The position numbers and the translations under genes are program-made. A stretch of DNA of 64,000 nt from Haloplanus sp. GDY1 (GTDB lineage Archaea > Halobacteriota > Halobacteria > Halobacteriales > Haloferacaceae), in contig NZ_CP098514.1 in the NCBI RefSeq assembly GCF_023703775.1, positions 248,001 through 312,000 of the forward strand, given 5' to 3'. Under the pieces are notes generated by a model. That model had not been told where the DNA came from and ran no database searches. It worked only from the letters and a program-made list of their open reading frames with translations. Shown here piece after piece: positions 12,115-61,783 of this stretch (position 1 is the stretch's first letter; the number at the start of each line of letters is the position of its first letter).

Positions 12115-13875
12115 ATGGACGGGAGCGACTCCGTGTCGGCGGGCGATGGCGTGAGCGACGCGGTCAAGCGGCGAGCACTCGCCGCCGCCCCGCTCGGCGT
12201 CGTCGTCACCGATCCGACGGCCGCGGACAATCCCATCGTCTACGCCAACGAGGCGTTCTATCGCCTCACCGGCTACGATCCCGAGGCGGTTCTCGGGAGC
12301 AACTGTCGGTTCCTCCAGGGTCCCGAGACGGACCCGGAGCGCGTCGCCGAACTCCGGGCGGGGATCGAGGCCGCGGAGCCCGTCTCGACGGTGCTTCGCA
12401 ACTACCGTCGCGACGGCACTCCCTTCTGGAACCACGTCGAGGTCACGCCCATCACCGACGACGACGGGACGGTCACGCACTTCGTCGGCTTCCAGCACGA
12501 CGTGACCGAACTGAAGGAGCGCGAGCGCGAACTCGCGGCGCGCCAGCGTCGCTTCGAGACGCTCCACGACGCCAGCCGGGAGCTGATGAACGCCGACTCG
12601 TCGACCGAGGTGGCTCGGATCGCGACCGACGCCGCGAAACACACGCTCGGCTACCCGATCACCACCCTGCGCTTCGCGGACGAGGCCGACGGAATCCTGC
12701 GGACGGCCGTGGCGACCGAGGAGTCGATCGCCGAGGCCGGCGAGCGACCCAACTACCGGATCGACGGCGACACGCCCGCGGCACGGGTGTACCGGACGGG
12801 CGAGCCCCTGATCTACGACGAACTCGACGAGACGGACGACGGGTACGACCGCGGCGACCTCCGGACCGGGATGTACATTCCCGTCGGCGACTACGGGGTC
12901 ATGAGCATCGGCGACACCGACCCGGCCGCCTTCGACGACACCGACCTGGAGATCGCGGGCGTCCTCGCGAAACTCGTCGCCGGCGCGGTGTCGCGACTGG
13001 AATCCGAGCGGGCGATCCAGCGCCGAAACGAGCGCCTGGAGCGGTTCGCGAACATCGTCGCTCACGACCTCCGCAACCCGCTCGGCATCGCCCGCGGCCG
13101 CCTGGAACTGGCGCGGGAGACGCGGGACAGTGACGACCTCGACGCGGTCGCCCGCGCCCACGACCGGATGGCCGCGCTGATCGACGACCTCCTCACGCTC
13201 GCCCGCGAGGGTGGGACGGTGACCGACGAGGACGCCGAGGCGCTCGATCTGGCGCGGATCGCCCGAGATTGCTGGCAGCACGTCGAGACGCTCGACGCCG
13301 ACCTGCGAGTCGTGGGCACTCGCACCGTCCTGGCCGACGAGGGTCGGCTGCGCCGACTGCTGGAGAATCTGTTTCGGAATAGTGTCGAGCACGGCTCGAC
13401 TGACAGCCGGCCGGCGGCCGGCGATAGCGTGGAACACGGTTCCACGAACAGTCGGTCGGAGACCGACGATAGTGTCGAGCACGGCTCGACTGACAGCCGG
13501 CCGGCGGCCGGCGATAGCGTGGAACACGGTTCCACGAACAGTCGGTCGGAGACCGACGACGGCGTGACGGTCACCGTCGGCGTCCTCGGCGACTTCGCTC
13601 GGGGGGCGACGGCCGCCGCCGACGGGGAGTCCCGGAGCGGCTTCTACGTCGCGGACGACGGCGTCGGCATCCCCGCGGAGCGACGCGATCAGGTGTTCGA
13701 CGACGGCTACTCGACGCTTCCCTCGGGAACTGGCTTTGGCCTCTCGATCGTTCGGGAGATCGCGGACGCCCACGGCTGGAGCGTCGAGATCGTCGACAGT
13801 CCCGACGGCGGCGCACGCTTCGAGTTCCGGGGCGTCGAGGGGGCTCGCCAGGGACCGAACGCGACCGAATCCTGA
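12115..13875 (+). CDS. LOV-GAF sensor histidine kinase (putative blue-light receptor)
   Basis: 586 residues. A PAS domain of LOV type occupies about 18-132: GSNCRFLQG with the photo-adduct Cys64, Asn96 (NYRRDG), Asn106 (FWN) and Gln127 (GFQHDV), the residues that hold flavin. A GAF-like domain follows (about 145-295), then the H-box with His317 (VAHDLRNPL), N-box (LLENLFRN), and ATP-lid (DDGVGIP, GTGFGLSIV). Between N-box and ATP-lid sits a 60-residue insertion of four 15-residue repeats (423-482). No membrane segment, so soluble. Start ATG 12115 follows a TATA-like CTTATC about 28 bp upstream. It probably phosphorylates a response regulator elsewhere. Confidence 0.85.
   Translation: MDGSDSVSAGDGVSDAVKRRALAAAPLGVVVTDPTAADNPIVYANEAFYRLTGYDPEAVLGSNCRFLQGPETDPERVAELRAGIEAAEPVSTVLRNYRRDGTPFWNHVEVTPITDDDGTVTHFVGFQHDVTELKERERELAARQRRFETLHDASRELMNADSSTEVARIATDAAKHTLGYPITTLRFADEADGILRTAVATEESIAEAGERPNYRIDGDTPAARVYRTGEPLIYDELDETDDGYDRGDLRTGMYIPVGDYGVMSIGDTDPAAFDDTDLEIAGVLAKLVAGAVSRLESERAIQRRNERLERFANIVAHDLRNPLGIARGRLELARETRDSDDLDAVARAHDRMAALIDDLLTLAREGGTVTDEDAEALDLARIARDCWQHVETLDADLRVVGTRTVLADEGRLRRLLENLFRNSVEHGSTDSRPAAGDSVEHGSTNSRSETDDSVEHGSTDSRPAAGDSVEHGSTNSRSETDDGVTVTVGVLGDFARGATAAADGESRSGFYVADDGVGIPAERRDQVFDDGYSTLPSGTGFGLSIVREIADAHGWSVEIVDSPDGGARFEFRGVEGARQGPNATES
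13381..13560 (+). repeat. Two 90-bp coding repeats made of eight short palindromes
   Basis: The unit 13381-13470 recurs at 13471-13560 with only the last base changed. Each 90-bp unit has two related 45-bp halves, coding SVEHGSTDSRPAAGD and SVEHGSTNSRSETDD. Each half holds two perfect 7-bp-arm, 3-base-loop palindromes, for example GTCGAGC-ACG-GCTCGAC at 13384-13400 and GCCGGCC-GGC-GGCCGGC at 13406-13422. Changes between halves occur in both arms at once, so pairing is retained. It lies inside the kinase ATP-binding domain. Confidence 0.95.
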
Positions 13876-24562: not shown

Positions 24563-24670
24563 ACACGCGCTGGATTTCCGACTGCGCCCCCTCCGGGCTA
24601 CACACCCCCGTCCTAAGCTTGAACTCACAACATGGTCATCGCGCAAGGAGGACTGTCCTGAGTACGTTGG

Positions 24671-24743
24671 ATACCAGATGATGGGTATTCGTCGATGGCC
24701 TGATGATGGCTAATCGAGAGATACCTGATGATGGATTTCGTCG
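24671..24743 (+). repeat. Iteron-like direct repeats
   Basis: ATACCAGATGATGGGTATTCGTCG at 24671-24694 (given in parts: ATACCAGATGATGG then GTATTCGTCG) returns as ATACCTGATGATGG plus ATTTCGTCG at 24721-24743. A third shorter copy, GGCCTGATGATGGC, lies between them at 24697-24710. All are in the same direction and in a non-coding gap close to the HTH gene. Repeated sites like these often mark replication origins or regulator binding sites on plasmids. Confidence 0.55.
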
Positions 24744-39683: not shown

Positions 39684-40627
39684 TACGCGTCACCCTCCTC
39701 GTCGTCTTCCGCTTCCATCTCCTCGACGAGGTCGGCCGCCTCGTCCATCGTCTCCTCGTCGACCTCCTCGTCGACCGCCTCGTCCAAGTCGTCGGCGGCG
39801 TCCTCGTCTTCGACCTCGGCGGTCTCGGCTTTCCCCTCGTCGGGGAGTTCCTCCTCGACGACCTCCTCGACGATCTCCTCGTCGAGGCCCTCGTCGACGT
39901 CCTCGGGGGTCTCGGTCGGCACCTCGACCTCCTCGTCGGCGCCGACCTCGGGGACTTCCTCGGGCTCCTCCTCGAGGAGTTCCTCGACGCCGCCGCCGGT
40001 CTCCGCGGCCTGCTCGACGGGTTCGACGTCGGCGTCCTCGGCGATCTCGAAGTCGTCGGGCAGTTCGGCGCCCGGCGGGATGATCTTCACCGTCACGCCG
40101 ATGGTGCCGAGTTTCATCACGGCGACGCCCTGGCCCTCGTCCACGATGGACTCGGCGGGTTCGCCGTTGTGCTTGATGTAGCCGCGGTTGAACTTCTCGA
40201 CGCGGCTCCGCGCGCCGGTGACCTTCCCGGACAGGACGATCTCGGCGCCGAGGGCGCCGGCCTCCATGATCCGGTCGATGGTCGTGTGCCCCGCCTTGCG
40301 GAAGTACCAGCCACGCTCGAGGGCGTTGGCCAGTCGGTCCGCGACGATGCGGGCGTTGAGGTCCGGTTCGTCGACCTCCTGTACGTCGATCTGGGGGTCG
40401 TCGAGGTCGAACCGCTCCTCGAGTTCGGTGGTCACCTTGCGGATGTTCTTCCCGCCCTTGCCGATGACCATGCCGGGCTTCTCGGCCTTGAGGACGATCT
40501 GGGTCCCCATCGGGGTCTTGGCGACGTCCATGCCGCCGTAGCCCGCGCGGCCGAGTTCGTCCGCGAAGAACTCGTCGATCTGGGAGCGCTGGAGTCCGTT
40601 CTCGATGAACTGGTGTTCGTCGGCCAT
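39683..40627 (-). CDS. rps3: Ribosomal protein uS3 with long acidic tail
   Basis: 314 residues. KH domain near the N-terminus ([15 protein letters not shown]) and the S3 C-terminal domain up to about residue 195. The last 110 residues are almost only Glu, Asp, Val and Ala, a halophilic tail longer than in most relatives. It lines the mRNA entry. Confidence 0.95.
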
Positions 40628-60686: not shown

Positions 60687-60800
60687 ATGGACGGGACGGC
60701 TCCGCCGCCGGTTCGCATCGTCTCCACTCACCGCACTCGACGGTCGGCACGCGCCCCCACTCCGGGGTCGGCCGTCGGCCCACTCGGGGGTGAGCCGTGA
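60687..60800 (+). CDS. Leader-type small frame, 37 aa
   Basis: Reads MDGTAPPPVRIVSTHRTRRS and ends GPLGGEP. Its stop TGA overlaps the GTG start of the next gene (GTGA), and a TATA box stands 26 bp before its ATG. Both features suggest it is translated first and coupled to the 328-aa gene. No family recognised. Confidence 0.45.
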   Translation: MDGTAPPPVRIVSTHRTRRSARAPTPGSAVGPLGGEP

Positions 60801-61783
60801 CCGGATCGCCGGTGGCGGGGCTTCCGATGGTGCCCCTGCAGTCGGCGGGCTCCGTCTTGCTCCTGATGGTGCTCTTCGTAGTCGCGGCGGCGATCGTGGT
60901 CGTCTCCGCGGGCACCTCCGGAGACGCGGCCGACGCCGACGGGCTGACGCCGGCCCCGAGCGCGACCGACGAGGACCGCTCGGAGCTGTCGGCGGCGCGG
61001 GAGCCCCCGTCGGACGGGGCGTCGTCGGCGCCGGGGCGGACGGAGGGGACGGCGTCCGTGTCCGACGACGGGGCGGCGTCCACGCGCGACGACGGGGCGG
61101 TCGGAACCGTCGACGGGGGACTGACGCCACCGCCCGGTGAAATCGACGGGGGGACGACCCCGTCACCGGACGCGGCCGACGGCCGGTCGGATGGCCAGGG
61201 GTCCGCGCCGGCATCGAGCGCGACCCCGACGCGGACGGACGTGGACGACCGCCCGGACGTGGACGACCGCCCGGACGTGGACGACCGCCCGGACGTGGAC
61301 GACCGCCCAGACGTGGACGACCGCCCGGACGTGGACGAACGGACGCCCCCGACCGCGACCGACTCGGGGATCGAGGTCGGCGAAGGGGAGTCCGAGGCGG
61401 TCGTGACCGGCGCCGGGGGCGCCGACGGGGACGAGCGCGCACCCGGAGCGACTGGCGGGGAGGAGACGGCCGTCGCCGCGGCTCGGGACGACGAGCGGAC
61501 GACGCCAGACGACGGCGCGGACCCGCTCGACGACACGCGGACCGCCGTCGCCGCCGACCTCGATCCGGCCGACGTGTCGACGCTGGTGGATCGGCTGGCG
61601 GACGGCACGGACCTCGATCAGGCGGTCCGCCTCCTCGGAGCCGCCGGTCGAGAGCGCCCCGAGTTGCTCGACCGCACCGACGCGGTCGACCGACTGCGGG
61701 ACCTCCGGCTCGACCCCGATCCGGCCGTGAGTCGGGCGGCCAGGGAGGCGCTCGACGCCATGCAGGACCGGTCCGCCCCGTGA
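60797..61783 (+). CDS. Membrane-anchored repeat protein with HEAT-like end
   Basis: 328 residues from GTG 60797 (ATG 60827 possible). One N-terminal helix (VLLLMVLFVVAAAIVVVSAG, residues 20-39) anchors it. A long disordered Asp/Thr/Pro-rich region follows, with five perfect VDDRPD units and a partial sixth (about 149-182), and an end domain of helix pairs resembling HEAT repeats (about 255-325). Function unknown; a partner-docking role for the end domain is plausible. Confidence 0.65.
   Translation: MTGSPVAGLPMVPLQSAGSVLLLMVLFVVAAAIVVVSAGTSGDAADADGLTPAPSATDEDRSELSAAREPPSDGASSAPGRTEGTASVSDDGAASTRDDGAVGTVDGGLTPPPGEIDGGTTPSPDAADGRSDGQGSAPASSATPTRTDVDDRPDVDDRPDVDDRPDVDDRPDVDDRPDVDERTPPTATDSGIEVGEGESEAVVTGAGGADGDERAPGATGGEETAVAAARDDERTTPDDGADPLDDTRTAVAADLDPADVSTLVDRLADGTDLDQAVRLLGAAGRERPELLDRTDAVDRLRDLRLDPDPAVSRAAREALDAMQDRSAP
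61241..61342 (+). repeat. 18-bp tandem repeat coding VDDRPD
   Basis: GTGGACGACCGCCCGGAC repeated five times from 61241 to 61330, one copy with a single G to A change, then a partial sixth unit. In frame with the 328-aa protein; copy number could vary by slippage. Confidence 0.95.

Follow-up and report, generated by a model that had tools for sequence, protein, structure and literature searches.

The window, as we call the whole 64-kb stretch of Haloplanus sp. GDY1 DNA analyzed here, contains a gene for a 586-amino-acid sensor histidine kinase on the plus strand (12115 to 13875, an open reading frame from the ATG at 12115). The host genome is 3.4 Mb in size and belongs to the same genus as Haloplanus ruber, and the kinase region reads alike in another genome of the genus (L222, genome G204) and in H. 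ruber (L045). Pfam assigned PAS (8.9e-24), GAF (3.9e-13), HisKA (6.8e-13), and HATPase_c (3.3e-16) domains to the protein. The N-box of the kinase, LLENLFRNSVEHG, is located at 13357 to 13395 of the plus strand, and its residues N116, N120, E123, and H124 are invariant in an alignment of 42 kinases. A tandem array of hairpins lies in the loop 3' of the N-box, inside the kinase catalytic domain, and the native N-box codons extend into its first hairpin, which the last of them (VEHG) open. In AlphaFold modelling of the catalytic portion (mean pLDDT 80; 42 kinases), the array occupied residues 126-182 of the model, a low-confidence loop without structure that follows the N-box helix (107-125) and precedes the next strand (183-189). 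Since the array falls within a predicted unstructured loop, the insertion site looks permissive.

The array comprises eight hairpins between 13384 and 13557 of the plus strand, each with exact 7-bp arms and a 3-nt loop, arranged as two identical 90-bp copies of two 45-nt units, and each unit consists of a first hairpin (H1) and a second hairpin (H2). In the first 90-bp copy, H1a (GTCGAGC-ACG-GCTCGAC, encoding VEHGST) spans 13384 to 13400, H2a (GCCGGCC-GGC-GGCCGGC) spans 13406 to 13422, H1b (GTGGAAC-ACG-GTTCCAC) spans 13429 to 13445, and H2b (GTCGGTC-GGA-GACCGAC) spans 13451 to 13467; the second copy repeats them at 13474 to 13490, 13496 to 13512, 13519 to 13535, and 13541 to 13557, respectively. 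H1b also encodes VEHGST and differs from H1a by synonymous, arm-compensated changes, while the H2b loop, GGA, is a GNA triloop with a C-G closing pair. Tandem Repeats Finder returned 13379 to 13559 as 2.0 copies of a 90-nt period with 100% identity and a weaker 45-nt period within, and the peptide that follows the N-box contains the repeat DSVEHGSTDSRPAAGDSVEHGSTNSRSETD twice. The remainder of the window contains just 21 exact 7-bp/3-nt hairpins, none of which are clustered as in the array, and triplet shuffles yield approximately 8 per 64 kb. Folding of 182 nt gave z-scores of -9.1 and -10.1 for the two DNA strands and -8.1 for RNA, relative to shuffled sequences. The preliminary description had reported this array (at 13381 to 13560) and quoted concerted changes in both arms between the halves of the 90-bp copy, and both are exact in the sequence. 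Since the two 90-bp copies are identical, the eight hairpins of the window amount to just four distinct hairpins and two independent arm comparisons.

Other repeats are present in the window. An 18-bp tandem repeat at 61236 to 61338 (97% matches) encodes DVDDRP about six times within a plus-strand open reading frame (60797 to 61783), the minus strand encodes acidic, low-complexity repeats rich in Glu and Val at 39731 to 39992, and an imperfect 25-bp repeat at 24670 to 24734 (GATACCTGATGATGG...) has stops in most frames and is apparently non-coding.

A protein search found matches to this family in 119 of 195 haloarchaeal genomes, and in a collection of named genomes, all of the best loci (80/80) were haloarchaeal. 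Our array sample consists of 210 arrays with at least two units each. We found two main unit types. Type A units are 45 nt long; H1 occupies nt 1-17 and H2 nt 23-39, both having a stem of exactly 7 bp and a loop of 3 nt. Type B units are 48 nt long and combine the same H1 with a 6-bp stem whose conserved 10-nt loop starts with TCGNA. Longer H2 variants have stems of up to 10 bp, the centers of hairpins are mostly 22 and 23 nt apart, and the encoded peptide periods are 15 or 16 residues. A pseudoknot considered for type B (GAGC...GCTC with CCTCGT...ACGAGG) was rejected, as only the 6-bp stem with its 10-nt loop covaries and the GAGC/GCTC pairs do not. A viral origin was set aside, as relatives sought in viral contigs and phages were not found there, and all plasmid matches are kinases or a PAS protein. 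We also observed that four kinase arrays of Halorubrum and relatives contain a nested second insert (HGRSRDGDAVSRDDENSxxEFSNHST) that splits the VEHG..ST hairpin and may be another small coding insert. Furthermore, five loci from genomes of one family (f17) contain a third unit type, EDVHQTESDAAHQNA(K/Q)RSED, interleaved with types A and B and shared within genomes.

Paired arms in translated repeats could be a by-product of protein repetition and codon bias, and indeed the amino acids force five of the seven H1 pairs, which leaves the wobble pairs V3-S3 and E3-G3 as the only informative ones. We therefore picked units by peptide spacing alone. These two free pairs covary: V3-S3 was paired in 145/166 units and E3-G3 in 141/166, compared to 84 and 83 expected. 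H2 pairs covary as well, with mutual information of up to 1.05 bits, and do so via amino-acid changes. Relatedness of units inflates p-values, but the effects survive when a single unit per genome is resampled (0.85-0.87 paired vs. 0.32-0.52). When synonymous codons were permuted within each array, 365 hairpins fell to 36±5, a loss of about 90%, and hairpin density is 11.3 per kb in arrays compared to 0.27 per kb in kinase flanks. N-boxes that read VEHGGT cannot form H1, and they lack covariation at these positions (15/35 and 11/35 paired vs. 13.1 and 10.3 expected), whereas VEHGST at the same positions is paired in 66/81 and 65/81 cases (37 and 38 expected). Given that covariation is lost on synonymous permutation and absent from VEHGGT N-boxes, the codon-bias reading is refuted, and we give it practically no credence. 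Related kinases with the same peptides and no arm complementarity, which would have refuted the preliminary description, were sought and none were found, and the covariation extends across haloarchaea.

Arrays turn over rapidly and are shared among kinases. Orthologues of the window kinase within the genus (four loci including the window) differ in the units and the length of their arrays. Same-genome kinase pairs contained an identical array 20-mer in 31 of 68 cases, compared to a mean of 5 and a maximum of 13 in 1000 label shuffles, and shared array stretches reach 67 nt while the flanks of those kinases share just 14-16 nt. The window array itself has 44 nt in common with that of another kinase of the same genome (L004), and H1 variants tend to be genome-specific. 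Array copy number is highly variable, and many kinases, even close paralogues, are without arrays. Adjacent H1s tend to differ (the same V3 in 21% vs. 47% expected) while next-but-one H1s agree in 93% of cases, so that in many arrays a 90-nt dimer acts as the working repeat; the difference between neighbors could, at a guess, reflect avoidance of slippage or of cross-pairing. Arrays are also polar. The first H1 is perfect in 157/210 arrays and the last in 40/210, being usually decayed, and type A H2 is perfect in 125/209 kinase units.

We scanned genomes with an H1 pattern (the DNA encoding VEHGST), a search that insertions without H1 would escape, and inspected 120 isolated sites. At three of them, a non-kinase gene contains a clear, in-frame unit; the great majority of copies are at the kinase N-box. 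In an AMP-binding (acyl-CoA-synthetase-like) gene, GGGGAA and GACGAGGAGCGC flank a type B unit of 48 bp, which is bounded by GAAGACG/GAGGACG, and five relatives of this gene have the exact empty site (GGGGAG|GACGAG...). The unit of a Rieske gene is of type A (45 bp) and lies at CEDG|VEAWINRC, with the junction word GTCGAG. Among 20 Rieske orthologues of one family (f7), 10 are filled and 10 are empty, and both states occur in each of three genera. This position in a small Rieske protein is a site of recurrent insertion or of precise loss, and the pattern may also represent one old insertion with precise losses instead of several gains. The third unit, a 48-bp type B unit, lies in the tail of an AI-2E-family transporter, bounded by CTCGCGAGGAC repeats; this tail is not alignable in relatives, so there is no clean empty site. 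The Rieske copies are mostly decayed (H1 perfect in 1/10 and H2 in 2/10), in contrast to the first H1s and type A H2s of kinases, so hairpins seem to accompany array life and propagation and not the host protein. H1-like sites in a MATE-type transporter gene, after an MFS-type gene, in another frame of a bat-like regulator gene, and near a gene start were judged to be chance or ordinary sequence, as they have no second hairpin or unit context.

These insertions support the suggestion of the preliminary description that the units are mobile protein-coding palindromes, since array DNA is common to paralogous kinases and single in-frame units occur outside the kinases, in two cases with an exact empty site in relatives. 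The units might be true transposons in the style of REP or IS200/IS605 elements, moved as single strands by a hairpin-binding (HUH, Y1) transposase acting in trans, with selection for mobility keeping the hairpins. Short hairpins, single-unit insertions, and recurrence at one Rieske site are consistent with this, as are the IS605-type elements and derived PATEs that are common in Haloquadratum (PMC3119063) and the recognition of single-stranded REP hairpins by RAYT (PMC3733652). A dedicated Y1/HUH enzyme is a real rival. However, fixed ends are not what the junctions show: their phase varies with local microhomology (the Rieske insertion starts at VE, the AMP-binding and AI-2E insertions at ED), which fits microhomology-guided copying of a single period better than a fixed-end transposon. 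Furthermore, units reside mostly in one gene family, in a single orientation and frame. Position-wise composition of 209 units revealed no GTAG tag beside the hairpin and no conserved CGTC tag, the base of H1 being GTC or GTG, so the REP-like option that had been proposed is not supported. We consider a transposon origin unlikely.

We asked which molecule is folded. Stem mismatches occur at 0.30 (G.T), 0.39 (A.C), and 0.32 (other) of expectation, and since G.T is as depleted as the other mismatches, neither strand tolerates wobble pairs. The H2 loop has a C-G closing pair (C at nt 29 in 0.86 and G at nt 33 in 0.85 of units), and its sequence is GNA in 84/209 units and TNC, which is GNA on the opposite strand, in 34/209. 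Among perfect H2s, these fractions are 0.48 and 0.14, and the GNA share climbs with arm pairing from 0.12 in poorly paired units to 0.48 in perfect ones. The first base of the H2 loop is a synonymous wobble site. In loops that end in A, this base is G in 84 cases, A in 27, C in 1, and T in 1, while the matching codon context in kinase flanks contains C 3054, G 1744, A 473, and T 264 times; overall, purines outnumber pyrimidines at the synonymous loop base by 148:32, compared to 2217:3318 in flanks (odds ratio 6.9). H1 loops are ACG or ATG, constrained by the His codon, so that the GNA triloop with a G-C closing pair is found in H2 only. According to PMC4686876, which cites Yoshizawa 1997, this combination makes an extraordinarily stable DNA mini-hairpin, and in phage N4 promoters the extrusion of short hairpins from supercoiled DNA depends on a C-G closing pair and a loop with 5'G/3'A (PMC4496689). 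Judged from sequence patterns, these data suggest that folded DNA, rather than protein or RNA, is what is kept, and we infer that units may extrude as hairpins in haloarchaeal cells.

An alternative is that the hairpins work in mRNA, in translation pacing, stability, or regulation, and are kept by selection on RNA pairing, as the earlier proposal of RNA probing implied. The strong predicted RNA fold and the position of the covariation in a translated region are in its favor. Yet G.T mismatches, tolerable as G.U in RNA, are no commoner relative to expectation than others, the loop is of the DNA-type C-GNA-G class, Rfam gave no family match to the array at gathering score, and the arms are decayed in the Rieske copies; RNA function is accordingly disfavored and, in our judgment, very improbable. 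A host function at the DNA level, in which extrudable N4-promoter-like hairpins would act as internal promoters, as binding sites for proteins, or as hot spots of recombination and help to diversify kinases, draws on the match of the 7-bp stem, C-G closing pair, and 5'G/3'A loop to the requirements for N4 extrusion (PMC4496689), on order-wide retention, and on the fast turnover and sharing among kinases. The very variable copy number, the close paralogues without arrays, the strong differences between orthologous arrays within a genus, and the degenerate last units speak against a host function, which we regard as decidedly improbable.

We consider it moderately probable that the array consists of in-frame, protein-coding, mobile DNA-hairpin units that were seeded from the N-box and are copied at microhomologies in steps of one array period. 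Each unit, whether of type A (45 nt) or type B (48 nt), would join an H1 that goes back to the N-box codons of the kinase (VEHGST) to an H2 whose peptide is free and whose pairing is constrained. Seeding from the N-box, as first proposed in the preliminary description, fits the sequence of H1, in which S-T comes directly after the N-box codons V-E-H-G. Where DNA is supercoiled or single-stranded, units might fold into hairpins that stall or divert DNA synthesis, and diverted synthesis could then copy one whole array period into a target that shares a 6-7-nt word with the unit boundary. Template switching may also restore arm complementarity. Periods that are multiples of three would keep the downstream reading frame, disordered loops would presumably tolerate an additional 15-16 residues, and the conserved N-box may aid exchange from kinase to kinase. 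Spread would be neutral for the host and need no host benefit. The family itself, the covariation, the lack of wobble tolerance, the loop preference, the sharing, and the single-unit insertions are observed, while DNA folding in vivo, the copying route, the lack of a dedicated enzyme, and host neutrality are parts of this account that we infer. Pairing may be kept either by selection or by template-switch correction. Alternation of adjacent H1s is not predicted by simple slippage and counts against the account, as do the non-GNA loops of H1 and the concentration of copies at the kinase N-box with three clear insertions elsewhere.

That concentration is what would be expected if there were no mobility as such, and arrays instead grew by slippage, paralogues exchanged them by gene conversion at the N-box, quasipalindrome template switching alone made and repaired hairpins, and non-kinase copies were rare illegitimate events. 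Template switching does create and maintain perfect hairpins and homogenizes arms in coding DNA (PMC8794818, PMC8604942). One array (L032; G065:C1, near 736684) contains a single inverted H1 (VEPCST, GTCGAGC-CAT-GCTCGAC), an expected product of loop inversion. Nonetheless, such inversions are rare, with 1 compared to 384 forward H1 loops in units whose arms are homogenized, and these processes alone leave the GNA loop bias, the fixed 3-nt loops, the fixed 22/23-nt spacing, the alternating H1 variants, and the recurrent Rieske site unexplained, so we view this reading as quite improbable. Returning to N-box-seeded mobile units, we tentatively entertain a more specific history, in which a host gene gave birth to a mobile cassette: the N-box hairpin would have gained a second, GNA-loop hairpin, and the resulting 45/48-nt unit would have spread order-wide without a transposase by hairpin-provoked template switching at microhomologies.

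These arrays amount to a large natural experiment, with clean empty sites, where selection on the shape of DNA can be told apart from selection on protein in coding sequence. They also offer a concrete case of short palindromes seeding protein insertions, in which host sequence may turn mobile. Two old questions, whether short GNA hairpins extrude in haloarchaea in vivo and whether template switching alone can maintain hairpins, become testable in a tractable archaeon. Furthermore, they carry a warning for annotation, as haloarchaeal kinases have a disordered, fast-evolving loop that looks mobile-element-derived.

In-frame coding palindromes were already described, according to PMC10969869 and PMC2996958, for Rickettsia, Wolbachia, Methanocaldococcus, and PARCELs. 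The RPE-type elements of Rickettsia, with similar ones in Wolbachia and Methanocaldococcus jannaschii, share with our units in-frame palindromic DNA at tolerant positions that is multiplied within a genome, and the AMP-binding gene (48 bp; five empty relatives) and the Rieske gene (10 filled, 10 empty) show the corresponding absence of the palindrome from orthologues. According to PMC6649704, RPEs measure about 150 bp and occur as single copies dispersed among many unrelated genes, and their repeat identity fades with time. In contrast, kinase units are 45 or 48 bp with two hairpins each, mostly form tandem arrays at a single position in a single gene family, derive partly from the host gene's own N-box codons, and retain near-perfect hairpins in arrays. 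The CGTC end tag of the R. conorii RPE, as described in PMC3733652, differs from the base of H1, which is GTG in 64% and GTC in 29% of cases. PARCELs are likewise tandem protein repeats with DNA dyad symmetry and intragenomic shuffling; however, they have 25-residue units of imperfect symmetry, often in membrane-targeted ORFs, whereas ours repeat every 15/16 residues within the catalytic domain of a kinase and form exact 7-bp/3-nt hairpins. Short DNA hairpins and non-autonomous spread are also traits of REP/RAYT and IS200/IS605-type elements, haloarchaeal PATEs among them (PMC3733652, PMC3119063). Kinase units differ from them in having no GTAG/CGTC tag and no fixed ends with near-terminal palindromes, their junction phase varying between insertions, and in being coding, in frame, and arrayed at a single locus type.

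Quasipalindrome template switching (PMC8794818, PMC8604942) similarly makes and repairs perfect hairpins, coding DNA included, but it is known from scattered single cases and not from a dispersed repeat family with constant architecture and preferred loops. The coding palindromes of nematomorph mitochondria (PMC6649704) share perfect pairing maintained in translated sequence, although their arms are tens of bp long, lie in conserved protein parts, and are not mobile insertions. The hairpins of phage N4 early promoters and d(GNA) hairpins, as presented in PMC4496689 and PMC4686876, resemble kinase units in their 5-7-bp stem, 3-nt loop with 5'G/3'A, and C-G closing pair; the likeness is in fold alone, polymerase recognition is neither known nor implied here, and H1 lacks a GNA loop. 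Our literature search, which covered open-access papers, found no earlier description of the VEHGST repeat in haloarchaeal kinases. What distinguishes these units from the systems above is their size, their two-hairpin architecture, their GNA loops, their tandem arrays at one conserved site, their likely origin from host codons, and the order-wide maintenance of pairing.
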